A stretch of 64,000 nucleotides of DNA from the NCBI GenBank assembly GCA_001599355.1, contig BCGQ01000001.1:747135-811134 (forward strand), written 5' to 3'. The notes beneath the pieces were generated by a model that had not been told where the DNA came from, did no database searches, and saw nothing but the letters and a program-made list of their open reading frames with translations. The position numbers and the translations under genes were made by a program. Shown piece after piece: positions 1-64,000 of this stretch (the first letter of the stretch is position 1; the number at the start of each line of letters is the position of its first letter). This DNA is from Nakazawaea peltata (Eukaryota > Ascomycota > Pichiomycetes > Alaninales > Pachysolenaceae).

Positions 1-1284
1 TGCAACGTTCTTCTGCAGTAATAGGAATTGCTGGGATTCGTTCAACAAATCCCAGAAGAAATCAATAGGAGAGGATCCAGCTCTTCCTACCAAGTTTTGG
101 AACTGTGGAGCGTCTTTTACGGCAGTACAGAATTGTTTCCATGTGGTTCTCGGGGTTACTTTGAGCTTTAAAGAGTCGGGAGATGACAAGAAGGTCTTGA
201 ATTCCTGTCTCAGCTTGGTATCACTGTTGAAAATCCTCATTTTATGGTATTTCAACAGACTTGCGGTCTCTTCCTCTTTCTTTTTGACTATAGATTCATA
301 AATTTCCAGGATATCAAGGTTGGTTAATACAGAGAAATGCTTATTCAGTTGGAATCTGGCATCTTTCTTAAGGTCATCCACCAATTTCTCGAGAGATGAC
401 GTAACATCCACTTTTAAGTCATTCGATAAATATTCTTCCAATTCTTTAAGCAGTTGTAACTTCAGTTCTTGCTCGGATTTGTCATGCTGCAGACGAAGCT
501 CGCCTACGTATTCCTCGAATATCTCTCTCTTAGTTCTCTCATTCAGTAATGCATAGATTGGCTCGTCAATAATCTGTTTAGAGCAAGTGCTCCATCTGGT
601 ATAATACTTGATATCGTACTGTTGTAAGATTTTGATGAAGTTCTCTTTGTACAATTTCTTCGAGTTGAGACTCTCTTTATATTCCTGTTCGGCTTTGTTA
701 ATCAAGTAACTTTCAAATATCTCACGTTTTGTCAAAGCGTCCGGGATTTCCCAGTAAGTTGGGTGTTTTATGAAATGTTCCATGACTCGAGTGAAAGACC
801 AGTCTTGATCGACCTCTGCTTCTTCGAGCATTTGCAAAAATTTGGCTCTGGCATCCGATAATTGTTTTTGAGTGATCGAATTTATGGGTTTGGTGTTCTC
901 TAACTCGGTGCTTATACTATATTTTTCCGCCAATTGCTGGTAATCAACGTCATCTTCGATCTCTTGTGGGACGTTTTCAGCTTGGTCCTGCTGTTCATCA
1001 GGTTCAATATTGGTGGAAATTGTCTCGGATTCTGTAACTTTGGACTTCAATTCTTCAGGTAATTCCCATGAACTCTCTTCTGTCTCCACATTATAGTAGT
1101 ATATCTGACCATCCTCTGTGGTATATTGTTCCCACTTGGTGCCTTCTAGAAGCAGAGCATGATCGGTACTCAGGGACGGTGTTTCGATGGCATCTTCAGG
1201 CAATTCCCAGGAAGTTTCATTGGTTTCCGTATTGTAATAGTAAACTCGTCCTTCGGGATCGGTCGTTTTCTCCCAAACGGCCAT
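1..1284 (-). CDS. PRP40: Prp40-like U1 snRNP splicing factor, partial (C-terminus outside window)
   Basis: Spliceosomal U1 snRNP protein that bridges the 5' splice site and branch-point factors. The 428 codons visible hold two WW domains, from Trp4 to Pro29 and Trp51 to Pro76, both with the YYYN core. An acidic linker follows, then FF-type helical repeats starting near residue 125 with spaced W/F residues. Domain order and spacing match yeast Prp40. The frame stays open to base 1, so the C-terminus lies outside. The frame also stays open upstream to an earlier ATG near 1341, adding about 19 residues. I chose the ATG at 1284 because it sits just before WW1, as in S. cerevisiae Prp40. It diverges from ARC19 across a gap of about 265 bp. 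Family assignment is firm; the start is likely. Confidence 0.93.
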   Translation of the reverse strand, partial: MAVWEKTTDPEGRVYYYNTETNETSWELPEDAIETPSLSTDHALLLEGTKWEQYTTEDGQIYYYNVETEESSWELPEELKSKVTESETISTNIEPDEQQDQAENVPQEIEDDVDYQQLAEKYSISTELENTKPINSITQKQLSDARAKFLQMLEEAEVDQDWSFTRVMEHFIKHPTYWEIPDALTKREIFESYLINKAEQEYKESLNSKKLYKENFIKILQQYDIKYYTRWSTCSKQIIDEPIYALLNERTKREIFEEYVGELRLQHDKSEQELKLQLLKELEEYLSNDLKVDVTSSLEKLVDDLKKDARFQLNKHFSVLTNLDILEIYESIVKKKEEETASLLKYHKMRIFNSDTKLRQEFKTFLSSPDSLKLKVTPRTTWKQFCTAVKDAPQFQNLVGRAGSSPIDFFWDLLNESQQFLLLQKNVA

Positions 1285-1550
1285 TTTATATGGTTTGTCC
1301 AGCTGTATCAAAATGACTTCACCTCCGTGATGACTTTGTATAGTGAAAGAAATTTTCATATGTATGGAGGAGTGCATGAAATATCAAATTCCCAATCAGG
1401 AAATAGAGGAGTCTAAAGAGACGTGAATAATAGTCGTGTATATTGTCCTAAATCTGGCTCCAGAACAGACAGCGCAGGTAAAAAGGCGTAGTTTAAGGAT
1501 AAAGCGGGTATTAGAAGGAAGGCAAGTGAATTGAATTCGTTGAATCTATC

Positions 1551-2060
1551 ATGTCGCAATCATTACGTCCATATTTAAGTGCTGTTAGATCGTCATTGGA
1601 GGCTGCATTGTGTTTGGAGAACTTCCCATCGCAAGTAAGCGAAAGACACAACTATCCTGAAGTGGAGAGTAAGAAGACGAGAGAGATTTTGTTGAACCCA
1701 ATTACTATATCGAGAAATGAGGGAGAGAAGGTACTCATTGAGTCCTCTATCAACAGTGTGAGGATCTCCCTTAAGATCAAGCAAAGTGATGAGATTGAGA
1801 ACTTCTTAGTTGATAAATTCACCTCCTTCTTGACCAAGAGAGCAGAGACTTTTGTGATATTAAGAAGAGTGCCAATTGAGGGGTACGATATCAGTTTCCT
1901 CTTGACCAATTATCATAATGAGATTATGATGAAGAACAAATTGATTGATTTTGTCATTGAATTCATGGAGGAAGTTGATAAGGAGATTAGTGAGATGAAA
2001 TTATTTTTGAATGCTCGTGCTAGATTTATTGCTGAGGCATATCTTACTGTTTTTGATTGA
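1551..2060 (+). CDS. ARC19: Arp2/3 complex subunit 4 (ARPC4/p20)
   Basis: Core subunit of the seven-protein Arp2/3 complex, which nucleates branched actin at endocytic patches. The 169-residue product matches yeast Arc19 (171 residues) almost end to end. It starts MSQSLRPYL, carries the central ILRRVPI-GYDISFL segment, and ends with the [20 protein letters not shown] helix that packs against ARPC2. No intron or CTG ambiguity affects the assignment. Its divergent neighbour is PRP40. The following gap of about 880 bp leads to the DAL81-like gene. Confidence 0.97.
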
Positions 2061-6515: not shown

Positions 6516-8045
6516 TTAAACATTATCGGCAACCTTAGATTGGGTAGGACTAATGATATCCTCCAAAGTATTCTCAGTGTCCTCCAAATCTTTCTCCAAA
6601 TCAGAATGATCCTTGACATCGAAGAAAATAACAGGGATAGCAATGATCAAACTACCAGCCAACAAACCCCAAGTGGAACCGAAAATAGACATGTATGGAG
6701 CTCCAAGAGCATCGACTCTCCAAATGATAGCAGCTCCGGCAGACTGGATACCCTTATAGAATCCACTGTATACCACCAACTTTCTGGCACTGTTAGACAA
6801 GGCTCCCATGATATAGTAGACATAAGATTGCCAAACAGAGTCGAAGAAACCGTAGAACATGTAGAGGAACATTGGACCGATGTAGTTTGAGTCTTTGTAA
6901 TCGATCAAAGTCATGTCAACGGCACTTTCTCTGGTGAATTGTAATTGGAACTTCAATCCTCCTCCCCAAATAACATTGGTCAAGACAAAGAGGATACCCC
7001 ATCCGATCTTGGCTCTGGTGGATCTCTTGATCTTGGTGTAATCCATAATAAGAGCGAGTAATGGGGAACCGAACATTTGCATGAACCAGTATAACAACGA
7101 GTTCAAAGATCTGGTTCTGATATTGAATCTAGAAGCGTTGAAATCGGATTGTTGGTATGTGTAGAACCAGTTGGAAGCGAAGAACATTGGGAACAAGAGC
7201 AAGATCTTTGGTTCCGAGACCAAAACATGGACTAATTCCTTTAACTCGGTCTTCCAGGTGGTTTGTTTCTTGAAAATGACTCTAGTACCATCATTCTTCC
7301 ATACCTTGTTGATTGGTAAGATGAAGAAGGCCAAGACTGAACCGAGACACATCAAGACCAAGAAGGCAGCATAAGTTCCATCGTTGACGGAGGAACCCTT
7401 GTTATCGATGTTGTTGGCCAATGGAATAATGGAACCAATGACAGCACCGAGGTTGAAAACAACCCAGAATAACAGAATGGCAAAGGCCTTCTTATCTTCG
7501 GTAGGGTAAGCAAGCATGATTTGAGCTTGAGCAGACCACAAACAAGAGGCACAAACACCCAAGATGGCACCGGAAGCAATGACGAAACCGGCATTCTTAG
7601 TGTGGTAGTAACATAACAATGAGGCAGCATAAAGAGCATATCCAGTACCACCGAAACCTAAGGCAGCTTTTACACCGACAGTGTTGGTGATGGCACCAGA
7701 GAAAAATCCAATGGTAGCGAAAGTACTGTATAAGGCAACGTTGGCGTTATCGGCGACGGTGACGTCAGTACCAGCACCTCCGATACCACTAAGAGCGTTG
7801 AAACAACCCGGAGTCAAGAAACAGATGAAAGAGACCATGAACACTTGAGTCATGGCGGCAGAGTACCTTGGTAAAAACCCAAAGAGCTTCTTATCATACC
7901 ACAGGTCGGAATATTCAGGCTCGTACTTGACGATTCCGTTACCGATCATACCAATATCTGTTTCATCGGTGGAATCTTTGTTGTTGAGCGACACATCATA
8001 GGCAGCTTTCTGCTCGGCCTCTTTATCAGTTATAGACAGCGACAT
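6516..8045 (-). CDS. UNC93-like major facilitator family membrane transporter
   Basis: A 509-residue polytopic membrane protein of the UNC93/DUF895 branch of the major facilitator superfamily. The hydrophilic N-terminus of about 60 residues is followed by LFGFLPRYSAAMTQV and then about 11-12 hydrophobic segments. Family landmarks are an early GCFNALSGIGGAG loop, a glycine-rich LGFGGTGYALYAAS helix and CLWSAQAQIMLAYP. Substrates of fungal UNC93-like proteins are poorly known. It is divergent from NAG1, and the shared region carries two ATGTWACAT palindromes, so I infer co-regulation with GlcNAc catabolism and possible uptake of GlcNAc or a related sugar. It could instead be an unrelated neighbour. 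Start is the first ATG. Confidence 0.85.
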   Translation of the reverse strand: MSLSITDKEAEQKAAYDVSLNNKDSTDETDIGMIGNGIVKYEPEYSDLWYDKKLFGFLPRYSAAMTQVFMVSFICFLTPGCFNALSGIGGAGTDVTVADNANVALYSTFATIGFFSGAITNTVGVKAALGFGGTGYALYAASLLCYYHTKNAGFVIASGAILGVCASCLWSAQAQIMLAYPTEDKKAFAILLFWVVFNLGAVIGSIIPLANNIDNKGSSVNDGTYAAFLVLMCLGSVLAFFILPINKVWKNDGTRVIFKKQTTWKTELKELVHVLVSEPKILLLFPMFFASNWFYTYQQSDFNASRFNIRTRSLNSLLYWFMQMFGSPLLALIMDYTKIKRSTRAKIGWGILFVLTNVIWGGGLKFQLQFTRESAVDMTLIDYKDSNYIGPMFLYMFYGFFDSVWQSYVYYIMGALSNSARKLVVYSGFYKGIQSAGAAIIWRVDALGAPYMSIFGSTWGLLAGSLIIAIPVIFFDVKDHSDLEKDLEDTENTLEDIISPTQSKVADNV

Positions 8046-9224: not shown

Positions 9225-9980
9225 ATGAAAGTCGAGAAATATTCAAACCCAGACGAAGCCTCTAAACTGTTAGCAGAATACATTGTGGAGAAGATCACCA
9301 AGTTTGGTCCTACAGAGCTGAAGCCCTTTGTGTTGGGATTGCCCACCGGATCATCTCCAGAGAAGGTGTACAAATATTTAGTTGAATTCCACAAGCTGGG
9401 AAAGATCTCTTTCCAAAATGTGGTATCTTTCAATATGGACGAGTACTATGGTTTGGACCCATCAGATGAGCAAAGTTACCACTACTTCATGTACAAACAT
9501 TTGTTCTCTCATGTGGATTTCAAGCCGGAGAACATTAATATTTTGAACGGGTTGCTGAGTGATGTTGAGAAAGAATGTGCTGACTATGAACTGAAGATCA
9601 AATCTTATGGTCGTATCCATCTCTTTTTAGGTGGGTTGGGTCCAGAGGGACATATCCTGTTCAATGAGACAGGTTCAAGTAGAGACTCCAAGACCAGAAA
9701 AGTTGATCTTGTAGAGTCCACTATTGAGGCCAATTCTCGTTTCTGGAATGGAGACAAGTCCAAGGTTCCAAAACATGCTCTTAGTGTAGGTATTTCCACC
9801 GTTATTGATAACTCCGATGAGATTGTGATTATCGTTTTTGGAGAGGCCAAGAGATTTGCTTTAAAGCAGACTCTTAATGGAGAGATTGGGTCTAAATATC
9901 CATGTTCATTTTTACAAGAGCATGATAATGTTAGGATAGTTACTGATAAGAGTACTTTGGATGAATCGTTTAAGTTGTGA
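9225..9980 (+). CDS. NAG1: Glucosamine-6-phosphate deaminase
   Basis: Cytosolic enzyme converting glucosamine-6-phosphate to fructose-6-phosphate and ammonia, the last step of GlcNAc catabolism. The 251 residues match Candida Nag1 in length and align in number with E. coli NagB: GLPTGSSP loop at 39-45, FNMDEY with Asp72, and GGLGPEGHI-x-FNE with Glu141 (Asp in E. coli), His143 and Glu148. Residue 145 is encoded by CTG at 9657-9659, where the family has invariant Ala. This is the clearest single indicator that CUG means alanine here. Codon 111 is also CTG opposite Ala in C. albicans. The promoter carries clustered GTTACA motifs. Neighbours are the divergent transporter and TOM70 downstream. 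Confidence 0.97.
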   Translation: MKVEKYSNPDEASKLLAEYIVEKITKFGPTELKPFVLGLPTGSSPEKVYKYLVEFHKLGKISFQNVVSFNMDEYYGLDPSDEQSYHYFMYKHLFSHVDFKPENINILNGLLSDVEKECADYELKIKSYGRIHLFLGGLGPEGHILFNETGSSRDSKTRKVDLVESTIEANSRFWNGDKSKVPKHALSVGISTVIDNSDEIVIIVFGEAKRFALKQTLNGEIGSKYPCSFLQEHDNVRIVTDKSTLDESFKL

Positions 9981-10219
9981 ACCCACCTGGCCTTTACCCT
10001 ACCCCTACCGCCATCTATGCTTATCCGCTGCCCTTACCCCTATGCCTGCCCTTACCCCCCATAGTTAACCCCCCATATGCCCTAGTGTAATATATTTCCA
10101 TTTACAGTATTTCCCCTTACAGTAATCATCCCCCATTGCCCCCAAACGAAAATTTTTAATCGAAAAATGGAATTTGGACGAGACGGCGGTTAATCTTCAA
10201 AAGAGCATACCGATTGAAG

Positions 10220-12040
10220 ATGTCAAGTTTGGAATCATCATCACTTTGGGATAAACTGGCCAAGTTCGTAGCTACCCATAGAGCCGCCGTTGCAATTACT
10301 GCGGCTGTTGGAGCTTCGACCGCCGTTGGCGCCTACTATTACTTGAGCAATTCAGCTGATTCGCTGGATTCCGCCAGTAAAAAGAAGAAGAAGAAGTCGA
10401 AGAAGAAGAAGACCAAGAAGGATGGAACTGCTGTAGATGAGGACAAGTTACGTAAATTGCTTGAGGAGGCTGTTTTCCCATTTGATGCTGAGACTTTGTC
10501 GCCAGCTGTCGACGCCTCCGCCTTGGACCTGAAGCAAAAAGAGGAGTACGCGTTGGCTTTGAAGGAGACCGGAAATGCTTTGTTCAAGGACAAGTCTTAC
10601 AGAAAGGCCATTGAGTTCTACACTGCCGCTTTGGAATGTAATGAGGATGCTGTTTTCTACTCCAACAGATCCGCTTGTTATGCTTTCTTGGAGGAGCATG
10701 AGGAAGTTATCAAGGACACCTCCAAGGCTATTCTGCTCAAGCCTGATTATATCAAATGTTTGTTAAGAAGATCTCAATCTTACGATGCTTTGGAGAAGTA
10801 TGAAGATGCCATGTTCGATTTGACTGCTGTCACCCTTTATGGAGGTGTCAGTGCTAAGACCATTGATCTGCAATTGGAGAAGATCTTGGATAAACTTGCT
10901 ACTAAGGTTGTCGAGGCTAAGTTGATCGACCACAGACCTTCTTTGCCATCCACTTCGACTATTGCACCATTCTTCGGTGCCTTTGTTGCTGAAGGTCCAT
11001 TGGAAGGTGTCGATGTTTCTACTTTGGAGGAAGGTTCTGCCACTAAATTCTTGGTCGATGCTTTACTGAAGATTGAGTTGGGTACTACTGAAGGTTACGA
11101 AGAAGCCGATGTCTTGATCAAACAAGCTACCGACAGATTGGGTAAGGAATTGAAGGAATCCTCTCCAGATGCTAAGATTGCTGCTATTGCCTTTGAGTAT
11201 TTGGGAGCCTTTGACTTCTTGAAGAACAATTCCGATATGGCCATCAATAACTTACTCTATGCTATCTCATTGAACCCAAGACCAAGAGCTTATGTTATTT
11301 TGGGATTGGTTTATGCTGACAGACAAGAGGTTGACAATGCCACCAAGCAATTCGAGGCTGCTGGTTCTATGGACCCAGAAAATCCAGATGTATACTACCA
11401 TTTGGGACAATTATTGTACTTGTCGAACAAGTTGAGTGAAGCTGCTTTGCAATTCGAGAAGGCCAAGGAATTGAATCCAAAGAATGTCTTTGCTCATATC
11501 CAATTGGCTTGTATTCTGTTCAAACAAGGTGATCATGAAGGTGCCGAGAGAAGATTCCAAGAGGCCAAGAAGGCCTTCCCAACTGTTCCAGAAGTTGCCA
11601 ACTACCATGCTGAAATCTTAGCTGCTAAGGAAGATTACGAAGGTGCTATGAAACAATTCGAGATTGCTGCTAGATTACAAGCTGCCTTGCCAACCTTCAC
11701 TATTGGAGCCATGCCATTGATCAACAAGGCTACTATGGTATCACAAACCAATATGACCGAGCTGGAAGAACTTCTTGTCCAATCGTTGAAGGTTGATCCT
11801 AAGTCCGAGATCGCCAGAATGACCTTGGCTCAAATCAAGTTGCAACAAGAGAAGCCAGAAGATGCCGTCACCTTATTCGAGGAGCTGTGTGATTTGGCCA
11901 GAACTTACCCTGAAAAATTACAAGCTACCAGATTTGCCGAGCTGACAAAGGTACAAATCAGACTTAGAAAAGACCCTGTCTTGAGTGCCCAAGTCGAAGC
12001 TATCATGAGAAATGCTGCTTTGGCTAATGGTCAGTTCTAG
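10220..12040 (+). CDS. TOM70: Mitochondrial import receptor Tom70
   Basis: Outer-membrane receptor that takes Hsp70/Hsp90-bound precursors, such as metabolite carriers, to the TOM channel. An N-terminal anchor at about 17-40 (AAVAITAAVGASTAVGAYYYL core) is followed by a lysine-rich linker and tetratricopeptide repeats to the end. The C-terminus EKLQATRFAE-x-TKVQ-RLRKDP matches yeast Tom70; the x is CTG at 11942-11944, where S. cerevisiae has Ala. Length is 606 residues against 617 in yeast. The frame reaches upstream to a TTG at 10214, but the first ATG is at 10220. It sits inside the GlcNAc cluster without an obvious functional link, and its 239-bp promoter lacks the ATGTWACAT motif. Confidence 0.95.
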   Translation: MSSLESSSLWDKLAKFVATHRAAVAITAAVGASTAVGAYYYLSNSADSLDSASKKKKKKSKKKKTKKDGTAVDEDKLRKLLEEAVFPFDAETLSPAVDASALDLKQKEEYALALKETGNALFKDKSYRKAIEFYTAALECNEDAVFYSNRSACYAFLEEHEEVIKDTSKAILLKPDYIKCLLRRSQSYDALEKYEDAMFDLTAVTLYGGVSAKTIDLQLEKILDKLATKVVEAKLIDHRPSLPSTSTIAPFFGAFVAEGPLEGVDVSTLEEGSATKFLVDALLKIELGTTEGYEEADVLIKQATDRLGKELKESSPDAKIAAIAFEYLGAFDFLKNNSDMAINNLLYAISLNPRPRAYVILGLVYADRQEVDNATKQFEAAGSMDPENPDVYYHLGQLLYLSNKLSEAALQFEKAKELNPKNVFAHIQLACILFKQGDHEGAERRFQEAKKAFPTVPEVANYHAEILAAKEDYEGAMKQFEIAARLQAALPTFTIGAMPLINKATMVSQTNMTELEELLVQSLKVDPKSEIARMTLAQIKLQQEKPEDAVTLFEELCDLARTYPEKLQATRFAELTKVQIRLRKDPVLSAQVEAIMRNAALANGQF

Positions 12041-12105
12041 ACACTGTGTAAATATCAATAAAGTCTCTGACTGTAATTTCTCTTTTTATTATTCTATACA
12101 CTAAT

Positions 12106-13670: not shown

Positions 13671-16595
13671 ATGGCCACTTTGGAACTGAAAAGGAAGAAG
13701 TTGGGCCAGCTTATTATGGCTGGGTTCGAAGGAACCACCGTCAACCTGAAAATCAAATCTTTAATCGAAACTTATCATGTCTCCACCATCATTCTTTCGT
13801 CCAAGAACTTCGAGAATGCTGTCCAGGTGAAAAGATTGATCTGTGAATTGCAAATGATCGCCAAGAACGCCGGGTATGAATATCCTATCATGTTTGCCAT
13901 CGATCAGGAAGGTGGGATGGTGTCTACGTTCTTCGACGAGGACTATATCACTCAATTTCCAGGGCTGATGGGGCTCGCTCTGACTGGTTCCCCAGAATTG
14001 ATCTACGATGTTTGTAAAGCGATGGCTATGGAGTTGAGATCGATTGGGTTCATGATAAATCTCGGTCCCGTCTTGGATATGGTGACGAAGTTCTCACATC
14101 AATTGATAGGAGTACGTTCGTTTGGGTCGTCGGTCGATGAGGTGATCAAGTACGCTTCACTGCTGCTGAGGGGGTTCCGTGACGGAGGTTTACTCACTTT
14201 TGGTAAGCATTTCCCCGGGTTGAATAATGCTGAGATCTCGTCGTTGTTGGAGTTACCGATGCTTACCGAGACTCTTGATCAAATTGAGAATTCCAACGTT
14301 TTGACCTTCAAAGCTTTGATGGATCTGGATTTGTTGGATGGAGTAGAAGGTTCGGGAGCTCTGGTTCCAAATATCTCACCGAATGAATTCCATGCCTGTC
14401 TTAGTACGGTGATCATGGATGATTTGTTAAGAAAGAAACTCAAATTTGACGGTGTTCTGATCAGTGAATGTCTTGAATTGGAAGTTTTATTGTCAAATTT
14501 GGGCTTCAAACAAGGTGTCATCATGGCCCTGTTTGCTACTTGTGATTTAATTTTAGTTTGTCATAATTTCGACTTGCAAATTGAACTGGTGAATGCCCTT
14601 TTGCAAGCCATCGATGACGGGATCTTGGATGAGGTCACTGGAATCGATGAGTCTATCCGTAGAGTCCGTAATTTACAGAAGAAACTCCCATCTTGGGATG
14701 AGGTCTTCAATATCGTTGATATTTCTCCGGAATTACGTCTGAAGCATTTGGGTTTATCTCAGCTGGCGTATCGTAACTCTATAACTTTGGTGAGAGATTA
14801 TAATGGACACCTTCCTATCTGGAAATTCTTCACCGATGAAGAATTCATGCCTGAAAGTAATGGACTTTTACTTTTAACTCCGATTATCACGGCCCTTTAT
14901 TCCAAATCGAATATGCGACTGGTATCTCGGCCTCAATTCCCTGGAGAAGAGGTTTTCCAGGAGTTCGGTAGGAAGTTGTCCTCTTATAAACACCCCAATG
15001 CCAATTTCAAAGTGTATCATACCAGTTACACAGCTAATGGGTTGACGAATTTACATGAACAATTGATAGCCAAATGTAAAGTAGTCATTTTGGTCACATC
15101 TGAGGCCACCAGAAACCTTCATCAGATCGGAATTGCTAAACATATCTCGATGCTTTGTGGAGGAAACAGCCATAAAGCTCCAACTAGGAAACCTTTAATA
15201 ATTGTAGCAGTTTCTTCACCTTATGACTTTTATTATAATAAGAACATCGGTTCGGCTTATTTATGCACTTATGATTATACTGATAATGCATTGGATAAGC
15301 TTGTAGATGTACTTATGGGAGAGTATAGGGCCGTAGGATGTATTCCGGGAGAGTTCCTCAAGCGTCAAGGTGATGCGGAGGAGGAAGATTCCAAGAAAAG
15401 ACGTAAAAAAGAGAGGGTGGAGAGGAGATGGCTTGTAGATGAGTTCGATATCCACAGAGATTGGAAGGGATTGTACTCATTATGTATGTCTAATGTATTT
15501 GTAGGTCGTAATACGAACAGTTACTCTGAGAAGACCAATGAGGATGCGGAACTCGAGCTTTTGGAGAGACCTGAAGATGAGAGAAGCTTTAAAAGGTACC
15601 TTTCGAAGCTATTCCGATTACTCAATGATAACAGGGGAGTTCAGAAGCATTTCGTGGTGAGAAACAGTTCCATGAACACTTTGTATGGATTCGTAGCTAC
15701 TTGGTATAATGAGAGGCTTCGTACTGGTAGTATCATCTATTTGTTAGTTGATCTGCCTAAGAGAAATCAATCTGTGGGAGAGAGTTTACATTCTAAAGCT
15801 ATCAAGTATTTAGTAAATGAGAAGAATTGTGAAAAGGTGACTTTAGGTTCTCCGTTCCCTCTCTTACACTTTCCTACTAAGAGTTTATTACAGACACTTC
15901 AAAGTGATGAACTTTATGATGGTGTTGAAGAGAGCTCTCTTTTCCGCAACAATTCCATGCTCTCATTTTTGACTCGTAATCAGATCTGGACTTTTAGTAA
16001 ATTCCTCAATAGTAGTGAGGAGTCGAAACAACAACTGAGTTATATTTTGGAATTGGATAATCTTAAGAATTGGTCGGTTTCCAAAAAATTGGTCCGTCAA
16101 TTACAAGTAGTGGGGATTATGTTTGATGTGTGCCAGAATTTGCATGACGTTTTGCAGTTAATTTTGGTATATCACTCTTCCAATCCTCTGTTGTATGAAT
16201 TATATACAGAGACTGCTCGTTGTAACCCCTCTACGGTGAAAGTCTTAGTGGCTTTAGAACCTACAAACAAATCGGTTGTGGGAAGTGTAGTTGTCTTTAC
16301 TAATGAGTCTCCAATTTCGAAATTTTACCCATTTTTGGAGAATTTCGGATGTCCAGTGGGGGTTCTTAGTGGGTTAATGATTGATCCTTCGTATGAAAAC
16401 TTGACAGATGTATTTAAATTGGGATTGGTTTGTACTTCATTGAGTTTCTTGAGGAAACAGAATGAGAATTTGGATAAATGTATTTTACTTGGAATTGATA
16501 AGTCTACGAATAACCTTAACAATTTCAAAGATAATGGATTTAAGATGTATAAGCAGTATTATTATTATTATGATGAGAAGGACCGGTGGTTCTAG
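13671..16595 (+). CDS. NGS1: GH3-GNAT fusion, Ngs1-type GlcNAc sensor / histone acetyltransferase
   Basis: A 974-residue fusion. Residues about 1-350 form a GH3 beta-N-acetylglucosaminidase-like domain: AIDQEGGMVSTF, QFPG-A-MGLA-A-TGSPEL (both A are CTG codons at 13965 and 13980), LGPVLDM, GKHFPG and SECLELE. The C-terminal part from about 650 is GNAT-like, with an acetyl-CoA motif A reading RNQSVGESLHSKAI near 700. In C. albicans, Ngs1 of this architecture binds GlcNAc through the GH3 domain and acetylates histones at GlcNAc gene promoters. The homologous nag3 lies in the Trichoderma GlcNAc cluster. The SECLE stretch has Glu where bacterial NagZ has its Asp nucleophile, in keeping with sensing. 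A basic acidic-flanked linker (about 565-585) could be a nuclear signal. Retained hydrolase activity cannot be excluded. Confidence 0.9.
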   Translation: MATLELKRKKLGQLIMAGFEGTTVNLKIKSLIETYHVSTIILSSKNFENAVQVKRLICELQMIAKNAGYEYPIMFAIDQEGGMVSTFFDEDYITQFPGLMGLALTGSPELIYDVCKAMAMELRSIGFMINLGPVLDMVTKFSHQLIGVRSFGSSVDEVIKYASLLLRGFRDGGLLTFGKHFPGLNNAEISSLLELPMLTETLDQIENSNVLTFKALMDLDLLDGVEGSGALVPNISPNEFHACLSTVIMDDLLRKKLKFDGVLISECLELEVLLSNLGFKQGVIMALFATCDLILVCHNFDLQIELVNALLQAIDDGILDEVTGIDESIRRVRNLQKKLPSWDEVFNIVDISPELRLKHLGLSQLAYRNSITLVRDYNGHLPIWKFFTDEEFMPESNGLLLLTPIITALYSKSNMRLVSRPQFPGEEVFQEFGRKLSSYKHPNANFKVYHTSYTANGLTNLHEQLIAKCKVVILVTSEATRNLHQIGIAKHISMLCGGNSHKAPTRKPLIIVAVSSPYDFYYNKNIGSAYLCTYDYTDNALDKLVDVLMGEYRAVGCIPGEFLKRQGDAEEEDSKKRRKKERVERRWLVDEFDIHRDWKGLYSLCMSNVFVGRNTNSYSEKTNEDAELELLERPEDERSFKRYLSKLFRLLNDNRGVQKHFVVRNSSMNTLYGFVATWYNERLRTGSIIYLLVDLPKRNQSVGESLHSKAIKYLVNEKNCEKVTLGSPFPLLHFPTKSLLQTLQSDELYDGVEESSLFRNNSMLSFLTRNQIWTFSKFLNSSEESKQQLSYILELDNLKNWSVSKKLVRQLQVVGIMFDVCQNLHDVLQLILVYHSSNPLLYELYTETARCNPSTVKVLVALEPTNKSVVGSVVVFTNESPISKFYPFLENFGCPVGVLSGLMIDPSYENLTDVFKLGLVCTSLSFLRKQNENLDKCILLGIDKSTNNLNNFKDNGFKMYKQYYYYYDEKDRWF

Positions 16596-18661: not shown

Positions 18662-18719
18662 TGCATGATTAGATATATAGTATACAACTTCGATAGTTCA
18701 ACTTCGTTGAGTTGGTTGG

Positions 18720-22940: not shown

Positions 22941-23783
22941 CTAAACAATGCAGTAACCTCCATCGACAATCAAGTCACTACCAGTAGTGTAAGTTGAAGC
23001 ATCACTAGCCAAATATAAATAAGCACCAGCCAATTCTTTTGGTAACAGCTCTCTACCCAAAGGAACCAAACTCCACCATTTCAGTTTCAAGTCCTTATCG
23101 ATATAATCGGTCAACTCGGTCTTGATGTAACCTGGAGAAACAGTGTTAACACGAGCAAATGCGGCCCATTCAACAGCCAAAGATCTTGCCAAATGCAAAA
23201 CTGCAGCCTTGGTGGTGTTGTATGGAGTTTGCAATTGTGGAACATTTACAATATGAGCCGACATAGACAGTGTAGCAATGAAAGATCCCTTACCATTCTT
23301 CTTGAAGATCTCTCCAACTGCCTTAGCGCAATAATAGACACCATCAACATTACAACTCATGAGCTTTCTGTACTCTTCAACACTGGACTTCTCATCAAAC
23401 ATACTACCTGTGGTCCAAGCGACACCAGCATTGGCGACAAAAATGTCGATTGTACCAAAGTCCTTCTCGATTTGTTTGATGGTTTTATCAACCAGCTCAT
23501 ATTGATCGATCGGACACTTATAAGCCTTACATCTGACGTTATATTTGGAAGCAATCAGGTCGGCCTTATCATCGGCCGGCTTACTGTTATACCAAATGGC
23601 AACATCAGCACCCGCTTGCAGGTACAGTTCAGCAATGGCATAACCAATTCCGGAAGAACTACCGGTGACAGAAGCCACCTTGCCCTTCAATGAGAACAAA
23701 TCCAAAATTGGGGCAGAAACATCTGGGTCAGGTCTTGGTAAGTCCCCAAGGGAATCACAGACATAACTTTTTGGAGCAGACAT
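22941..23783 (-). CDS. Short-chain dehydrogenase/reductase, SOU1-like (copy 1)
   Basis: A 280-residue NADP(H)-dependent reductase of the Sou1/mannitol-dehydrogenase group, which acts on L-sorbose, fructose or related polyols. Rossmann motif TGSSSGIG near 41-48, NAG motif (VANAGVAW), catalytic Ser in TLSMSAH, YNTTK as the Tyr-x3-Lys pair, and SPGYIKTEL. The end [19 protein letters not shown] is typical of this group. It lies in the same orientation as a second copy upstream. A TGACGTCA palindrome lies 437 bp before the ATG. Substrate cannot be read from sequence. Confidence 0.93.
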
Positions 23784-24373: not shown

Positions 24374-25255
24374 TTAAATCGAACAATAACCTCCATCTAC
24401 TCTGATATCTGATCCGGTAGTATAAGTAGCGGCATCACTGGCCAAATATAAGTAGGCACCGACCAATTCTTGTGGTAACAGTTCTCTTCCCATTGGGATC
24501 AAACTCCACCATTTGGCTCTAACTTTACGAGGTAAGAAATCGGATAATCCAGAGTCGACATAACCTGGAGAAACGGTGTTGACACGAGCAAAACCGGCCC
24601 ATTCAACAGCCAAAGATTTCCCCAAATGTAAGGCACCAGCTTTGGCAACATTGTAGCAAGTTTGGAAGTTTGGAACATTTACAATATGACCAGACATCGA
24701 CAGGGTAATAATGAAAGATCCGTTTTTGTGCTTTTGGAAAATCTTACCAACAACCTTAGCACAGTAGTAGATGGCATTTAAGTCGACATCGACCAATCTC
24801 TTCCAAGTGTCAACCTTGGCGTTAACATCTTGTAAAATGGCACCAGTACCCCAAACGATACCAGCGTTAGCGACAAAGACATGGATACTGCCAAATTCCT
24901 TCTCGATATCCAAGATAACAGTCTCAACATTGTCTGGATCACTAACATCCACCTTATAACTCAGAACTTTGTTACCGTACTCGGCAGCTAATTTTTTGGC
25001 CAGAACAGTGGCATCATTGTAATCCATAATGGCAATATCGGCACCCAGTTGAGAATAACACTCACAAATCAGGTATCCGATACCTCTTCCACCACCAGTG
25101 ACAACGGCAACTTTACCCTTCAACGAAAGTCTGTCGAAGATGTTCTTCTTCAACTCTGGAGCTGGCCATGGCAATGGGGTGTCAACGTCTTCGTTGATGT
25201 AAGAAACGGTTGGACCTTGGTCCTCAGCTGGAGTAGCGTTACCTGAGATAGTCAT
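24374..25255 (-). CDS. Short-chain dehydrogenase/reductase, SOU1-like (copy 2)
   Basis: 293 residues, paralogous to the reductase at 22941-23783 along its whole length. Rossmann motif TGGGRGIG, VANAGIVWGTGA, TLSMSGH, YNVAK catalytic pair, SPGYVDSGL, and the shared tail TYTTGSDIRVDGGYC. The frame reaches a GTG at 25267, but the first ATG is at 25255. The two copies are moderately diverged, so the duplication is not recent. The upstream region has a TGACGTCA palindrome at 25485-25492, 230 bp before the ATG. Confidence 0.93.
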   Translation of the reverse strand: MTISGNATPAEDQGPTVSYINEDVDTPLPWPAPELKKNIFDRLSLKGKVAVVTGGGRGIGYLICECYSQLGADIAIMDYNDATVLAKKLAAEYGNKVLSYKVDVSDPDNVETVILDIEKEFGSIHVFVANAGIVWGTGAILQDVNAKVDTWKRLVDVDLNAIYYCAKVVGKIFQKHKNGSFIITLSMSGHIVNVPNFQTCYNVAKAGALHLGKSLAVEWAGFARVNTVSPGYVDSGLSDFLPRKVRAKWWSLIPMGRELLPQELVGAYLYLASDAATYTTGSDIRVDGGYCSI

Positions 25256-52122: not shown

Positions 52123-55100
52123 ATGCCGGTAAATACGTCTTCTACTCACCCATACGGTGTGGATGACGTCTCTATATCTCCGACAGATGTCCGTCATACT
52201 GCCTTTATCGATAGAGCAGAGCCACGGAGCCAACTGACACCAGAGCAGCAAGAACAAGACCTGCGACGTGACCAAGAACAACTGCTTCTAGTCCAAAATG
52301 GGTCACTGCAACGTACACATCTCAAACCTTTGAATATGGAGATGAGACATGGCTTCGAAGAAGAATATGCTTCCCCAGAATACATGGACATCCTCGCAAA
52401 TGGATTCTTTATATACTACGATGATAAGAGACATAATACATCTGGAAACCCAATGACAGACGATGAAAAGAGAGCCAATTATAGGAATAACCAGCCAATT
52501 TTGGATTGGAAAATCATGAAAGATAGACAAAAGACCGTAAGTGCTGCTATTGTATTATGTTTGAACTTGGGAGTAGATCCTCCTGACATTGTGAAAACTC
52601 ATCCATGTGCAATCACCGAAGGTGGCATCAATCCTTCTAACTTCACCGATACCAAAAAGTGTCTCCAAGCTATAGGTGATGCAATTCAAAAGAATCTCGA
52701 GATTTTGTCCTTGAGAACAAAATATAAACAGTCATTGGATCCTTCAGTGGAAGATTTGAAGCGTTTTTTGAATCAACTTAGACGTTCTTCCAAAGATGAG
52801 AGAATTTTATTTCATTATAATGGTCATGGTGTTCCTCAACCGACTCTGAGTGGTGAGATCTGGGTCTTCAACAGAGGTTATACACAGTATATTCCTATAT
52901 CATTGTATGATTTACAGACATGGTTAGGGGCTCCTTGTATTTATGTTTATGATTGTAGTTCTGCAGGGAATATCATTTCCAATTTCAAAAAATTTGTTCA
53001 GAAAAGAATCGATGATGACAATAACGGGAACCATGATATATCTGCCCCTTCACCAACATCTGCTTATGTGGACTGTATTCAATTGGCTGCTTGTAGAGCT
53101 AATGAGATTCTTCCTATGAACCCGGAGCTCCCGGCAGATTTATTCACTTGCTGCTTGACTTCACCTATAGATATCAGCGTGAAATGGTTTGTGATGAATT
53201 CTCCATTGAAAAAACATGGCCATTATGATTCATTATTCAATGAAAATGGCCAAATTATCATACCAGGAAAGTTGACTGATAGAAGAACTCCTCTTGGAGA
53301 ATTGAATTGGATATTTACCGCAATTACAGACACAATCGCCTGGATCACATTATCTAGACCTCTTTTCAAGAGATTGTTCAGACAGGATTTGATGGTTGCT
53401 GTTTTGTTCAGAAATTTCCTTTTAGCCAAGAGAATTATGCCATTGGTGGGATGTAATCCGATTTCTGACCCTCCTTTACCGGAAGTCAGACATCATCCTT
53501 TATGGGACTCATTCGATTTAGCCATTGATCAGATTTTGTCTCAACTTTTGATCAATCAAAAGGCTGCAGGAAATCCAGCCACTGCGATGTCGTTACAACA
53601 ATCCACCGCACTCACACAACAGCCTGGTCAACAGCTTGCGAACGGAGCAGCTACTCAAAGACCTCCAGGTTCGGATCCTGCCATGTCAAATTTCCAGCAT
53701 TCGACATTCTTTGAGCAACATTTGACCGCATTTGAGATGTGGTTGAAATATGGTGCTCAAACTCGTCAACCTCCTGAACAACTTCCGATTGTTCTTCAGG
53801 TTCTCTTATCGCAAGTGCATCGTATTAGAGCCCTTACTTTACTCTCCAGATTCTTAGATTTGGGCCCTTGGGCTGTATACCTTGCTCTTTCCATTGGAAT
53901 TTTCCCATATGTTTTGAAATTATTACAGAGTCCCGCTCCAGAGCTGAAACCTGTCTTGACTTTCATCTGGGCAAGAATATTGGGTGTAGATTACAAGAAT
54001 ACTCAACAGGAATTGGCAAAAGATGAAGGTTTCGACTACTTCTTGCAGATCCTTAGCATGCCGGTCCCACGAAGTAGTACTGGTGCTGTAAGCATATTGT
54101 CATTAGGAGAACCTCATAAACTGATGTCCTGTTTCATTTTGTCGCTTTTCGTAAGAGATAAGATTAACAACAAGAAAATGGTGGCATCTTCTGCTAACTA
54201 TTCCACAATTTTGCGTATTGTTGAGACGACGTCCAACCCTCACCTTAGACAATGGTCCCTGTTATTATTGTCTCAACTTTGGGATCAGTATCCAGAAGGG
54301 AAGTGGCTCGCTTACAAAGATGGTATTCTCGATAGATTAATTGCCATCTTAAGTGATCCTATTCCTGAGGTTAGAACTTCGGTGATCTTGGCATTGGCCA
54401 ACTTCTTACCGGATGTTAACAACAATGAAGAGGAACACAACACCAATAATTTCGGAAGAGAGGAACTTCAACAACAGGAGATCAGACTTGCCATTTCTGT
54501 TTTGAATGCTATGGAGGATGGTTCTCCGATCGTACGTCGTGAGATTGTAGTGTTTTTCAGTAAATTTGTATTGAAATACTTATCGTTCTTTTTGGTGAGC
54601 GCTTTTGGACAATTGGAGGAAGAGATTGCCTTGATTGATGACCCGATTTCTATAGATGAAGTTCGTAGGATGTCTCCTGCTTATGGAACTGTTTTCAGTA
54701 CTGCTTGGAAACTGCTTTTGATCTTCTCGGAAGATCCTCATAACGAAGTACAATCTTATGCTCAAGAGATCGTTGACTATGTTTTACTCAAGTTAAATGA
54801 AAGTAAACTTGGAGAGATTGCCTTGGAGATGGAACTGTACCTTTTGCAGAAGAGTTCAGTGCGTCTCAATAGTGAGATGGAGTCCATGCAAAACGGAAAT
54901 GGTCATATCAATGAACTCAAAATTCCAAAGAGAAACAATGCCAACTCAATGAATAGTATTAATAGATCGGCCTCGTTGAATATCAGCAAAAATGGGGGAA
55001 GAGTCACCACCATTTCATCTACTGCTGACCAAGACCAAAGAAGAATTGCATCGTCGGCATCAACATTCTCAGTCACCGATAGATTGAAGAATTCTCTTTC

Positions 55101-56498: not shown

Positions 56499-59400
56499 CT
56501 AAACCATCATCCAAGAGTCATCTGGTTCTTCAGATTCCAGATGCTCCAGTGAAGGTTCTTCTGAATAATTCAGTCTTCTACTCATAGTTAATTTCTTAGC
56601 ATATTCCAATTCCGAATAAATTGTAGATACAGCAAGACTGACCCCGTTCTCCAGACGGATCTTCTCTCCAACATCTTTAGCCTTTGATATGATCCGTTGA
56701 TCAGATATGACTTTTCTTATCAGTTTACTCAATGATGAGGAATTGAGCTTTCTCAAGGCTACCCCGCAACCAATATCGACAACTCTATTGGCGTAGAAGA
56801 ATTGATCACCGAAGAATGGTTTGATAATAGTAGGTAACCCAGCTCTTAAAGAAGCACCAGTAGTACCTGAACCACCATGATGGACAGCAGCATCTATTTG
56901 AGTGAAAAGCCAGTCATGAGGAACTGATGGTGTATTATAAATACAATCAGGTAAAGGTATTTCGACTTCTTTACTGTCAGCACTACCCAAACGATCAGAC
57001 CATCCTTTGTTCAAGATACATCTGACATCGGCATCCACTACAGCTTCAATCACAGCATTGGTAAGCAGTTTAGGATCCGATACAACAATCGATCCAAACC
57101 CAATATATACCAATTTCTTATTATCAGCTCTACTCTTTTCTATGAACTCGAGTAATGCTTCTGGAGGCTCATAACCATTTCCTTCATCAAGGAACCAATA
57201 ACCTGTGACCTTCACCCAGCTTGCAAAGTCAACACTTGGAGGGAATACAGTAGGTGATATGTTATACAAGAAAGGAACTTTGGATTGTTGTAACAAGTCC
57301 AAGTTCGTCTTTGGAAGCTTCAAAGATTCGTGTCTCCATTTATTCACTTGACCACTAATTCCCTTCCAGAAGACATTTTCAAACATCACATGGGTTAAAT
57401 AATTGTAAGAACCACCTCTTTTTTGATCGGGAACAATAAAAGCATGAGGATACGCTCTTGTTCTGGTCCAAGGCATGGTAAAAGCTCTGAAATAAGGAAT
57501 TCCAAGAGCCTCAGCGATATGAATCCCAGCCATCAGAGATGGCGATTCTATCAAGATATCAGCATCTTGACATGCCTCCCAAGAGGAAGAAAGTAAGTCG
57601 TTAATCCACCCTCTAAACTTGGAAGATGCCTCTTTTAAGAAGGAAACGCTCAAAGTACCATGTGTCACCATAAGACTCATCAATTCAGCAGGATCGCCAG
57701 CGATCTTGGCAAATTCTATCCCGTGTTTCTCTACCCAAGGTTGAAATTCTTCATGGCTAACAATCTTTACTTTGTGACCCTCCTTCAACAACTCTTTACC
57801 CAAAGATATATAAGGTTGAACATCACCACGAGATCCTATGGTCAACAATACGAATTTGTAACTCTTCTTAGGTCTCAAATCTGTCTGAACTTGGGGATTG
57901 TTGTCTAGTATTATAGGGAGATGGACTCCAGATATAGCCTTTAGTTTACTTTCGAAGAGTCTTATTCTTCCTTCAGTCAAGAATAAGTCAGATTCAGGAC
58001 TCGAATTCTCCCCATTATAAGACACAGAAACACTCTTGTCTCTCAATCTACGGTCTATCTGCTTTAAAAGCAAGATCTCACAATCGTCTCTTGCCTCTGA
58101 AGATCCAAACTCGAAAAATAACTCCTCATGTCCATGGATAACAACCACCAACCCCGAGTATCCAAACCGGAATCCTTTCTCTTTATATACATTCTCTATA
58201 TCTTCGAAGGGTAAGATCATATAAGTTCCCGTACCAAGTAATAAAGACCTATAACATATGTGATTATCTCCGATGTAGATCTTGCCGTAAATAGGTACGT
58301 TCTTGATCAAGTGGGAGTAATACGAAGAGATCAATTTCTCGTCTGAAGGTAGAGAGAAATGCTTTTGGAACCTCTCAGTTGCCAGATTACGTTCTACAAC
58401 ATCTTTAATTAAGTATGGATCCTCCAGACCCCTCTCAAGAGAGATAGGTTCAGAATAATGATGAGGAACTGCACTCCACATTTGAGATAAATTCGATACA
58501 TGAGATATTCCAGATGAGGTCATTCCAGTTACTCCTCTGATAATTCCTCGGGATATCCATCTCAGGTATCTTTTATCGTCGTTTTTGAGGTCAGTCAGTT
58601 TTACAGGCGAGCTTTCGTTGCTACTATCACTTGAGGAGGAGATATTCAGTTTGGCGTCGCCTTTCTCGTTGATGAAAATCTCTGGAATTTCGTCTAGAGC
58701 CTGAGCCTGAGCCAGAGCCTGAGCCTGAGCCAGATCCAGATCCTGAGCCAGATCCAGATCCTGAGCCAGATCCACACCCACACCCACACCCACATCCTGA
58801 CCCATTTCCAACTCCATATCCTGATCCAACTCCAAGTCCACACCCTGCTCCACACTCACAGGAATCCTCTCAACTACACTATCACTTCCAGGTGAAGGAA
58901 CCAAATTCCTCGTCGCATTCTCAATATCACGAACTACATCCTCCGCTCCATACAAAAACATCAAATGATAATCATCAACAGCATAAGTCTCGGCACTTTC
59001 TATCACCTTCAACTTCAATAGCTGAGATTTATCAAACACAGGAGTCAACTCAAGATCTAAAATGTTACCCAAAGGTGCCTTCAAAGAAACATGACTCTCC
59101 TTGTTCTTAGCGGAGAAAATATGCTTCTTCAACGTAGCTATCCAGACATTTGCCGAGTCTTCGGAGTCAGTCTCGAAAGTATATGACCGGGACTCGGTAA
59201 TAAGCCTGAATGAATGAGAATGATGCTTCAGATGACGGAAAAGGTGTCTTTCCAGTTTAGAAGTGACATGATCGATCTTGATAGCATACTGTAAATCGAT
59301 GGTTAACGTTGGGAAATACAAATCTACTGAGGAAGAATAAAGTGATAAGCTGGAATCACGAAGAACAGCCCATCTTTTCACATGACGTCTAGAATGAGGA

Positions 59401-60735: not shown

Positions 60736-62226
60736 TTACCATTGTGCTATATCCAGTTCCAGCTCACCAAACACCGAGCTCTTCTTAATCGAAAAATCAT
60801 TTTCATCTTCTTCGTCCTCACCACCAGTAGATTCAGCATTCAATAAATCACTTAAATGCTTAGCTTCGAACTCAAGTATACAATTATTCATTTCTGCAAA
60901 TTCCAATAAAAATGCATCATGACCCTCTGGGGAATCAATTTTCTTGAAAGTTGAGTTTTTGATATTCTTGGCGATCGTTTGCTGCTCCGAAAAAGTGAAA
61001 AGACCATCCGAAGTGATTCCGATAACGAGGGTCGGTAAGTCAAGTGACAGTAACAGTTTCTCGACACTATTTTCAAACTCGGGTCTATCTCTGCATACAT
61101 CATGAGTATCGACTTTCCTTGTAATGGAAATGTAACAATTGGCATCGAATCTACTCAAGAATTTTTCACCTTGGTATCTTAAATAAGATTGAGCAGAGAA
61201 GAAATGGGGGGTTCTGTTTTTGTTTCGTAAAGGTTTGGATGTTGGAGGAGATGTGGAGAGATTAGATACCAGACTAGCAAGAGATTCCATTGAACTACGA
61301 CGAGATCCAACAGTACTGGAAGATGTTCTTCTTGGTCCGGCTCTTTGTGGAGTCCTTAACCCATCATTATGAACAGACCAATTTGTGTCATTGTGCAGTT
61401 CTGAATCAACAGCAGAGTCTCCCTCTGTCTTAGTCTTATCGGATAGCAGTTCCAGCTTTTTCATGTTTCTTCTTCCTTCTGTTCTTCCGAATTTCCTCTC
61501 CAATGAGTTTCTGGATCTATATGTTAACATTGCAGACATTCTCAGAGCACTTAAACCGTTCTTTGGAGGATCATCCAAAGGATAATATCCATCGTCATAT
61601 TTAGGATCGGAATAGATACATTGACGTTGAGCCTCATTCCATGAGATGCACCACAGTGAAGTTCTAGCACTTGTAGCACACAGTACAGCAGTCCTTACAA
61701 AATCTTTAGCCATAAAACACCATTCTAATGATAACATACCTCCCATTGAGCCACCAATGACGATGGCGATCTGTTTTACACCCAAGTATTGCTCAAGAAC
61801 AGCACGATGGATATTCACATCGTCTCTCACCGTGGTCAAGGGGAACTCTGGACCGTATAATTCGTCAGTTTCAGGATCCTTGGTCACAGGAGACAGCGAT
61901 CCATATGGAGATCCAAGTGAATTCAAACAAACGATGAAAAACTTCGAAGGATCAAACAGCTTTCCCTTACCTAAAAGAGGCCCCCACCAATCGGAGACAT
62001 CGGCCGATCCGGTCAAAGCATGACAAATCACCATACAGTTGTTCAGCTCCAGATTCAATTTACCATATGTTTGGTACAGAACAGGAACATTGAATATCAC
62101 ATCACCGCTCTCTAAAGTGACCTCTTCGATCTCGACAAATTTCTGGGAAGCCACCAATTTTGAGAAAGGGTTCTCAGGCTGGGGTTCATCCAGTGTAATT
62201 TCTTTGAATTTCAATTCCTGAGACAT
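60736..62226 (-). CDS. MET2: Homoserine O-acetyltransferase
   Basis: 496 residues. Makes O-acetylhomoserine, the acceptor for sulfide in methionine synthesis. An alpha/beta-hydrolase: ICHALTGSADVSDWWGP, the nucleophile elbow GGSMGGML, the C-terminal catalytic His in SPEGHDAFLLEF, and the yeast-type insert before FSAQSYLRYQGEKF. CTG codons coincide with Ala of S. cerevisiae Met2 at SA-x-RMSA (61543-61545), TS-x-WCISW (61654-61656) and V-x-CATSAR (61681-61683). AAACTGTGG, the Met31/Met32 core, lies about 170 bp upstream. Confidence 0.96.
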   Translation of the reverse strand: MSQELKFKEITLDEPQPENPFSKLVASQKFVEIEEVTLESGDVIFNVPVLYQTYGKLNLELNNCMVICHALTGSADVSDWWGPLLGKGKLFDPSKFFIVCLNSLGSPYGSLSPVTKDPETDELYGPEFPLTTVRDDVNIHRAVLEQYLGVKQIAIVIGGSMGGMLSLEWCFMAKDFVRTAVLCATSARTSLWCISWNEAQRQCIYSDPKYDDGYYPLDDPPKNGLSALRMSAMLTYRSRNSLERKFGRTEGRRNMKKLELLSDKTKTEGDSAVDSELHNDTNWSVHNDGLRTPQRAGPRRTSSSTVGSRRSSMESLASLVSNLSTSPPTSKPLRNKNRTPHFFSAQSYLRYQGEKFLSRFDANCYISITRKVDTHDVCRDRPEFENSVEKLLLSLDLPTLVIGITSDGLFTFSEQQTIAKNIKNSTFKKIDSPEGHDAFLLEFAEMNNCILEFEAKHLSDLLNAESTGGEDEEDENDFSIKKSSVFGELELDIAQW

Positions 62227-62467: not shown

Positions 62468-63544
62468 ATGGGATATCCACAGGGGAACTGCCATGTTTAT
62501 GGAGGAGAGGTGGATGATTTGAAGAAACCTTTGAGTTCGTTTGAGAGACATAACTTTGTGGATAAGGTGGACATTTTGATCTCCAAGAGTTACTATGAGC
62601 TGAACAAAGAGGTGATGAATATTCCGTTTGAAAGTTATAATTTGAAGTCTACGTGTTTGGGGAATGTTTTATTGAATGATAGTGTGATTAGACTTGTTCA
62701 GCATCCGCAATTCCATGTCAAGGCTGTGATGAAGTCAGAGTTGAGTAACAATGATTTGTTTGTACTGATCTTAAAAGACACACTTTTAATCACATTATCG
62801 AAAGAGCTAAGTTGGCAAACAGGATTACAAATGAAACCGTCTTCATTCAAGAATTCCGATCAATATCAGTTCCGTTACAATTTGAATAAACCAGACTTGG
62901 CTTCTGATACTACTTTTTTGAAGATACTAAGGTTTTTCCAACTGCAGATCTCTGGTGAATATGAGATTATCATGTCTATAAGTGATGTCAATGGAAGACC
63001 TATGGTACTTTCAGATGAGCAATTATCAAAGATTGATTTGGAGATGAGAATTGGATCCCATACAGGTTCAGCTTCTAGAAACTCAATAGTCCAACCATTG
63101 GTCTCATATTTCGACAACAAAATTGTCCCAGAGAAGATGATCGTAGAACTGAATGATTCAACTTCAGCTTTAGATATGTTAGAATACTTATCTTATCTTT
63201 CGATCGATGGCTCCCAATTAACTAGCCCAGTCGACTCATTTCTATCACTGTATACAGAATCAGTTGATATATTACACAATTCTACAAAGAGAGATGATAT
63301 AGTGAAGGTTTCATATCATGCTGGATTGGTGCCTAGTTTCTACATTCAGAAATCTGTAATCCAGAATATCCCAACCGGAGGGTCATGGATTGCAATCTTA
63401 GCTCACGGAATCGAGAACGTCAACTACGGCTTTGGATTCTCGGAACATTTTTTCCATGAATCGGGCGAAAACAATACTTGTTATCTCCAGAGTGGAAACA
63501 CTTTTGTTCTTTGGGAAACTGTAGGGGGAAGAGACAGTTACTAA
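62468..63544 (+). CDS. Protein of unknown function, 358 residues
   Basis: I do not recognise a family. The frame reaches a TTG at 62462, and the first ATG is at 62468. The product is soluble in appearance with no signal peptide or membrane segment. Notable parts are RHNFVDKVDILISKSYYELNKEV near 25-45, a mixed alpha/beta middle, and a well-structured end with GGSWIAILAHGIENVNYGFGFS and SGNTFVLWETVGG, which suggests a beta-rich C-terminal domain. Codon use and length make a real gene very likely. It is divergent from MET2 and followed after about 105 bp by the PWI gene. Confidence 0.8.
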   Translation: MGYPQGNCHVYGGEVDDLKKPLSSFERHNFVDKVDILISKSYYELNKEVMNIPFESYNLKSTCLGNVLLNDSVIRLVQHPQFHVKAVMKSELSNNDLFVLILKDTLLITLSKELSWQTGLQMKPSSFKNSDQYQFRYNLNKPDLASDTTFLKILRFFQLQISGEYEIIMSISDVNGRPMVLSDEQLSKIDLEMRIGSHTGSASRNSIVQPLVSYFDNKIVPEKMIVELNDSTSALDMLEYLSYLSIDGSQLTSPVDSFLSLYTESVDILHNSTKRDDIVKVSYHAGLVPSFYIQKSVIQNIPTGGSWIAILAHGIENVNYGFGFSEHFFHESGENNTCYLQSGNTFVLWETVGGRDSY

Positions 63545-63650
63545 GAAAAAATTTTCGGGTCATAAAAAATTCTCTGTATTTAAAGGGGTGAATAGATGGA
63601 GAAGGTGAAGTGAGGGGAAGTGAAAAGAAGATCAAATTGAAGATTTCAAG

Positions 63651-64000
63651 ATGGTGATAAAGTTTCCGAAAATATTTGATCAAGAGGTGGATTTGAAGAA
63701 AGTGAATAAAGGGGTGATTTCTTCATGGATGTCACAAGAGCTCGAGACTTTGATCCCAGGAGATGACATATTAGTATCGTTTGCAGAGAACTTGTTGTAT
63801 CAGAATGACCTACCAGATATCAAGGATATTTATAGACAATTGGAAAGTTTTTTAGAAAATGACACTTTGAAGTTTACACATAAGTTGTGGTGTTTATTAA
63901 TAGATGCCCAAACCGATACTGATGGGATCCCTAAAGAGCTTATTGAGATGAGGGAAAAACAGTTGAAGGAACAGGAACTGGCCCGAATAGCTGAACAGGA
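63651..64000 (+). CDS. PWI-domain splicing factor, SRRM1-like, partial (C-terminus outside window)
   Basis: The first 116 codons of a gene cut by the window end. Residues 1-105 form a PWI domain: FPKIFDQEVDLKKVNKGVISSW, with an LxFAENLLYQ middle and LESFLENDTLKFTHKLWCLLIDAQ, then GIPKELIEMREKQLKEQE. N-terminal PWI placement is that of SRm160/SRRM1, an RNA-binding splicing co-activator. S. cerevisiae has a PWI domain only at the C-terminus of Snu71. Start is the first ATG in a purine-rich leader. Confidence 0.85.
   Translation, partial: MVIKFPKIFDQEVDLKKVNKGVISSWMSQELETLIPGDDILVSFAENLLYQNDLPDIKDIYRQLESFLENDTLKFTHKLWCLLIDAQTDTDGIPKELIEMREKQLKEQELARIAEQ

Follow-up and report, generated by a model that had tools for sequence, protein, structure and literature searches.

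In the 64-kb stretch of DNA analysed here (positions 1 to 64,000; hereafter the window), the codon CTG appears to be read as alanine. Judged from the sequence, the window would be nuclear DNA of a yeast that uses CUG as an ordinary codon for alanine (presumably NCBI table 26), most likely from a member of the Alaninales (Nakazawaea, Peterozyma or Pachysolen), a reading to which we give a probability of about 0.97. A nuclear code with CUG as alanine had been proposed for this DNA in a preliminary description, and it was the best reading in four tests: the columns of bacterial homologues, eukaryotic solved structures, profile scores and a pair of paralogues located in the window itself. In the window, 32 reading frames begin with ATG and span 150 codons or more. 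Two of them, nested in longer genes on the opposite strand, were dropped, and the resulting working set of 30 genes contains 251 CTG codons.

For the main test, the window proteins, their CTG positions masked as X, were aligned by tblastn to homologues taken from prokaryote genomes of one phylum, which are not independent of each other; up to 199 genomes per search were entered via one distant locus matching the aconitase ACO2. Seven window proteins were usable, each aligned to 10 to 33 loci. For every codon, a score for each of the 20 amino acids was derived from the homologue residues in its columns, and codons with at least 10 columns were reported. In the seven proteins, 51 of the 67 CTG codons stood in columns with at least 8 homologue residues and were tested. 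The standard residue was recovered for 49 of the 50 codons that reached the reporting threshold, and the sole exception was CTG, for which alanine obtained +38.8 bits, glutamate -17.6 and serine -22.2, while leucine ranked 13th of 20 with -65.2 bits. The lead of alanine amounts to 56.4 bits over glutamate, 60.9 over serine and 104.0 over leucine. CTT, CTC, TTA and TTG each returned leucine in the same test, CTA having fewer than 10 columns.

When the 51 CTG columns were bootstrapped, alanine came top in 9,996 of 10,000 replicates. It stayed first whichever protein was left out (7/7, with a lead of 33 to 57 bits), was favoured by six of the seven proteins taken singly, and was returned for CTG under all six pseudocount and subsampling settings, three of which moved TGT off its standard residue (in one of these, TGG as well). 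In 20,000 random draws of 51 positions from the 2,557 aligned ones, the 56.4-bit lead was never matched, the maximum being 46.7 bits. Taken in aggregate, the earlier claim that CTG sits where the protein family has alanine is thus beyond chance.

The CTG columns were also compared with random sets of columns belonging to alanine (GCN), leucine or serine codons. Their summed difference between alanine and leucine, 104.0, lies within the range of the GCN sets (68 to 156) and outside that of the leucine sets (-145 to -62). The difference between alanine and serine, 60.9, is again inside the GCN range (47 to 108) and outside both the leucine range (11 to 54) and the serine range (-74 to 7), exceeding all 5,000 random serine-codon sets. 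Twelve CTG columns consist of one residue to at least 80%: alanine in six, glycine in four, aspartate in one and threonine in one. CTG columns dominated by leucine or serine, which the preliminary description had named as an observation that would speak against it, were looked for, and none was present among these 12. By the same measure, 51 of 73 conserved columns at other leucine codons were leucine, 25 of 50 at serine codons were serine and 44 of 71 at GCN codons were alanine.

Homologues with solved structures gave the same answer. From eukaryotic structures, 58 of the 106 CTG codons of nine proteins could be scored. Each score rests on one to three residues taken by eye from the alignments, and no separate all-codon control accompanies this test. 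Alanine obtained +26.7 bits, serine -5.0, threonine -30.8 and leucine -58.6, and alanine was top in 9,925 of 10,000 bootstraps. The queries were partial for KOG1 (residues 200-909), TOM70 (90-600) and ATG26 (from about 845). Near-duplicate chains were counted once (five of aconitase, two of Tom71, two of ATG26, two of mL67, and the carbonyl reductases), and three human Raptor chains were also collapsed to one. The 58 columns omit the carbonyl reductase 7dll, a gappy Tom71 residue at TOM70 515 and the match of ATG26 to the bacterial structure 1iir. The eukaryotic chains are mostly from baker's yeast, with others from human, Chaetomium, Candida, Acremonium and cow. Bacterial solved structures, with 16 CTG columns, gave +12.2 bits for alanine, -0.1 for serine and -22.0 for leucine.

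Profile scores were obtained by translating the genes under tables 26, 12 and 1, that is, with CTG as alanine, serine or leucine. Summed over 32 Pfam domain scores, the alanine translation reached 3551.8 bits, the serine translation 3507.3 and the leucine translation 3426.8, margins of 44.5 and 125.0 bits. This contrast covers 20 of the 30 proteins, the other 10 being annotated only, and the sum excludes overlapping or repeat families (among them further models for TPR and WD40, adh_short, KR, UDPGT, UNC-93, Abhydrolase_6 and RIF2_lid). For NCBIfam, eight of 10 submitted proteins contributed a score, the hexokinase-like and carrier proteins having no family match, and the sums were 3381.5 for alanine, 3338.0 for serine and 3297.8 for leucine (margins 43.5 and 83.7).

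An internal comparison is provided by two SDR paralogues, the first of which (SDR1) resembles solved carbonyl reductases such as 3ctm. With CTG treated as X, 151 of 278 aligned positions are identical between SDR1 and SDR2, and CTG is common to both at two positions. The nine CTG positions that are not shared face a GCN codon three times, lysine three times, and cysteine, serine and asparagine once each; a leucine codon is never faced. The two genes lie in tandem at 22941-25255, with 55.6% identity by BLASTP.

At single sites the picture is more mixed (Table 1). Codon lists placed all 14 codons named in the preliminary description, 13 as alanine sites and one in KOG1 as a counterexample, in frame as CTG. 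Nine of the 13 stood up: those in NAG1, TOM70 and ATG26, codons 221, 507 and 684 of ACO2, codons 228 and 191 of MET2 and codon 104 of NGS1. The NAG1 alanine had been regarded as part of the active site, where leucine or serine would be implausible; a strict demand for alanine was ruled out by the glycine present in 27 of 30 bacterial homologues, and the site therefore wants a small residue.

Table 1. CTG codons discussed individually and tRNA genes of the window. PDB chains are those among the matches listed.
Feature	Position	Strand	Observation
NAG1 codon 145, GHI-x-FNE	9657..9659	+	A in 5/5 PDB chains; bacterial G 27, A 3 of 30
ACO2 codon 221	32330..32332	+	A 30/31 bacterial; V in 1aco
ACO2 codon 507	33188..33190	+	A 30/32 bacterial; A in 1aco
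ACO2 codon 684	33719..33721	+	A 32/32 bacterial; A in 1aco
MET2 codon 228	61543..61545	-	A 30/30 bacterial; A in 5/5 PDB chains
MET2 codon 50	62077..62079	-	A 24/30 bacterial; A in 5/5 PDB chains
MET2 codon 391	61054..61056	-	A 15/25 bacterial; A in 5/5 PDB chains
MET2 codon 191	61654..61656	-	A 19, P 11 of 30 bacterial
NGS1 codon 104	13980..13982	+	A 20/29 bacterial
NGS1 codon 164	14160..14162	+	A 20/30 bacterial
TOM70 codon 575	11942..11944	+	A in Tom70 and Tom71 chains
ATG26 codon 958	57534..57536	-	A in 5xvm/5gl5
KOG1 codon 608 (counterexample)	53944..53946	+	L in 3/3 distinct orthologues among five chains listed
SDR1 codon 55	23619..23621	-	A 27/29 bacterial; A in 3ctm; TCT (Ser) in SDR2
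SDR1 codon 234	23082..23084	-	GCC in SDR2; A in 3ctm; bacterial K/D/E-rich, A 2/29
SDR2 codon 62	25070..25072	-	GCC in SDR1; A 13/29 bacterial
SDR2 codon 70	25046..25048	-	GCG in SDR1; bacterial E 15, A 6 of 29
tRNA-Pro(TGG)	43774-43845	-	ARAGORN, Rfam
tRNA-Asp(GTC)	47056-47128	-	ARAGORN, Rfam

Several observations weigh against CTG as alanine. Four of the proposed alanine sites did not survive inspection: ACO2 33593 (glutamine in 11 of 20 bacterial homologues, valine in 1aco), ACO2 33677 (glycine in 32/32 and in 1aco), MET2 61681 (proline in 16 and alanine in 5 of 30) and NGS1 13965 (asparagine in 22 of 30). In the bacterial columns, alanine is the modal residue at just 17 of the 51 CTG positions and scores above serine in 37 and above leucine in 43 of them, and the single column of DAC1 favours arginine. 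Alanine is also the commonest winner for random sets of positions (13,197 of 20,000), so that the size of the lead, and not the rank alone, is the evidence. Serine scores above alanine in 12 and leucine in three of the 32 Pfam domains, and in NCBIfam the nagZ model prefers leucine (145.7 versus 144.5) and the nagA model serine (253.9 versus 253.0). Finally, no tRNA with a CAG anticodon was found in the 64-kb window by ARAGORN and Rfam, which detected only the two tRNA genes of Table 1.

Part of this evidence favours serine, the meaning of CTG in the Candida (Ser1) and the Ascoidea/Saccharomycopsis (Ser2) clades. Besides the Pfam domains just mentioned, serine is second of 20 residues in the eukaryotic-structure columns, the CTG columns SDR1 172, SDR2 185 and ACO2 473 lean towards it, and one CTG of the paralogue pair faces a serine codon. 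Moreover, the alanine-leucine difference of the CTG columns fits the range of serine-codon sets (39 to 113) as well, and serine is for this reason excluded by the alanine-serine difference instead, which lies beyond every random serine-codon set. With serine absent from the 12 strongly conserved CTG columns, and with CTG placed in near-invariant alanine columns such as ACO2 684 and MET2 228, we consider this reading extremely unlikely. The standard code, under which CTG would be leucine and the alanine columns would arise from chance or recent substitutions, has virtually no chance of being right: the column test refutes it, leucine ranking 13th at CTG while CTT, CTC, TTA and TTG return leucine, and no conserved CTG column being leucine where most of those at other leucine codons are. 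In its favour are a few aliphatic columns, e.g. SDR2 98 and NGS1 231, 263 and 287, together with KOG1 608, where the counterexample given in the preliminary description proved genuine, all three distinct orthologues in the matches listed having leucine.

A further possibility is that CTG is ambiguous, mainly alanine with a real share of leucine (or serine) due to competing tRNAs. The share of CTG among putative alanine codons differs strongly among the 30 genes, from 0 to 64% (chi-square 112.6, 29 degrees of freedom, P 9e-12). The genes for a proteasome ATPase and a mitochondrial Trp-tRNA synthetase (44058-46959) have no CTG beside 27 and 28 GCN codons, where about six would be expected in each (P about 0.001 each, uncorrected for 30 genes), and the ARPC4 gene at 1551 has none beside eight. 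At the other end, the gene for a VTT-domain membrane protein (30441-31331) is rich in CTG, with 14 against eight GCN (P 3e-5). Low-level mixing is also compatible with the mass spectra in PMC5951914. However, a mixture fit for the CTG columns gave alanine 0.80, glutamate 0.14, glycine 0.04 and isoleucine 0.01, leucine not being among the six largest weights, and columns with an aliphatic majority are not enriched under CTG (9.8% versus 19% for GCN). Expression-linked codon bias may lie behind the variation between genes, or else selection against a codon that is read imperfectly. Since no leucine share is visible in the fit and aliphatic columns are fewer than under GCN, the ordinary explanation is preferred; scarcity of CTG in some genes was rejected as proof of ambiguous decoding, and we regard such decoding as very unlikely. 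It is very improbable, too, that the window comes either from a yeast outside the Alaninales that shifted CUG to alanine separately, which would be the fourth independent nuclear reassignment of the codon among budding yeasts, or from a member of the Alaninales where a small remaining leucine share eliminates CTG from the genes under the strongest constraint.

With CUG as an alanine codon, published work on the Ala clade suggests how it may be read: CUG would be decoded by a tRNA-Ala whose anticodon was mutated to CAG, and this tRNA would keep its alanine charging because alanyl-tRNA synthetase requires no particular anticodon bases. Its gene would sit outside the window. PMC5951914 describes for each reassigned clade a novel CAG tRNA that arose when the anticodon of a tRNA-Ser or tRNA-Ala gene was altered, and states that neither alanyl- nor seryl-tRNA synthetase needs particular anticodon bases.

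The gene content of the window is clearly eukaryotic and of yeast type, with, among others, aconitase, glucosamine-6-phosphate deaminase, homoserine acetyltransferase, a Raptor/KOG1 homologue and TOM70. Further genes of this type are those for a sterol glucosyltransferase (ATG26), a VPS39/VAM6 homologue (at 40741, named from its single PDB match), a GH3 plus GNAT protein, a mitochondrial carrier and hexokinase. A gene cluster for N-acetylglucosamine catabolism and sensing extends from 6516 to 20964 and comprises an MFS transporter, the NAG1 deaminase, a DAC1/nagA-type deacetylase, the NGS1-like GH3 plus GNAT protein, a hexokinase-like gene and a regulator of the NDT80 family; TOM70 lies within it. 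In Trichoderma, an N-acetylglucosamine cluster is placed under the control of the Ndt80-like regulator RON1 in PMC4950302. The sole Pfam match of a small open reading frame at 22333-22872, to DUF5321, is below threshold. Apart from CTG, the 30 genes contain 130 CTC, 248 CTT, 436 TTA and 659 TTG codons and as few as 25 CTA, very scarce beside CTT and TTG. That this scarcity is a peculiarity of the CUG-Ala code was ruled out by PMC11540330, according to which CTA is generally unpreferred across the subphylum. The GC content of the window, 41.1%, is near the 42.3% given for Nakazawaea ambrosiae in PMC10106607 and is merely compatible with a placement in the Alaninales.

The order Alaninales consists of one family with three genera, Pachysolen, Nakazawaea and Peterozyma, the same three that PMC5951914 lists in the Ala clade; PMC11540330 treats the CUG-Ala reassignment as standard knowledge. 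As both clade and order are already published, the CUG-Ala reading is real, correctly interpreted and already known, a confirmation and no new kind of code. The window resembles the code of these genera in that CTG has moved from leucine to alanine in nuclear genes of a budding yeast while the other testable leucine codons are kept, and no difference in codon meanings was seen. The codes of the Ser1 clade (Candida) and of the Ser2 clade (Ascoidea, Saccharomycopsis), also covered in PMC5951914, reassign the same codon in budding yeasts, by a CAG-anticodon tRNA; unlike in these codes, CTG in the window is alanine, with serine 60.9 bits behind. Leucine-box codons have likewise passed to alanine in the mitochondria of Ashbya, where, according to PMC3874161, CUU and CUA are concerned; that case is mitochondrial and affects other codons, whereas CTT in the window stays leucine.

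Nuclear genomes very rarely change the meaning of a sense codon, and the present change is recoverable from raw DNA of 64 kb. Table 26 is the one to use when annotating this organism, as the standard code would mistranslate 251 of the 15,740 codons (stops included) of the 30 genes.

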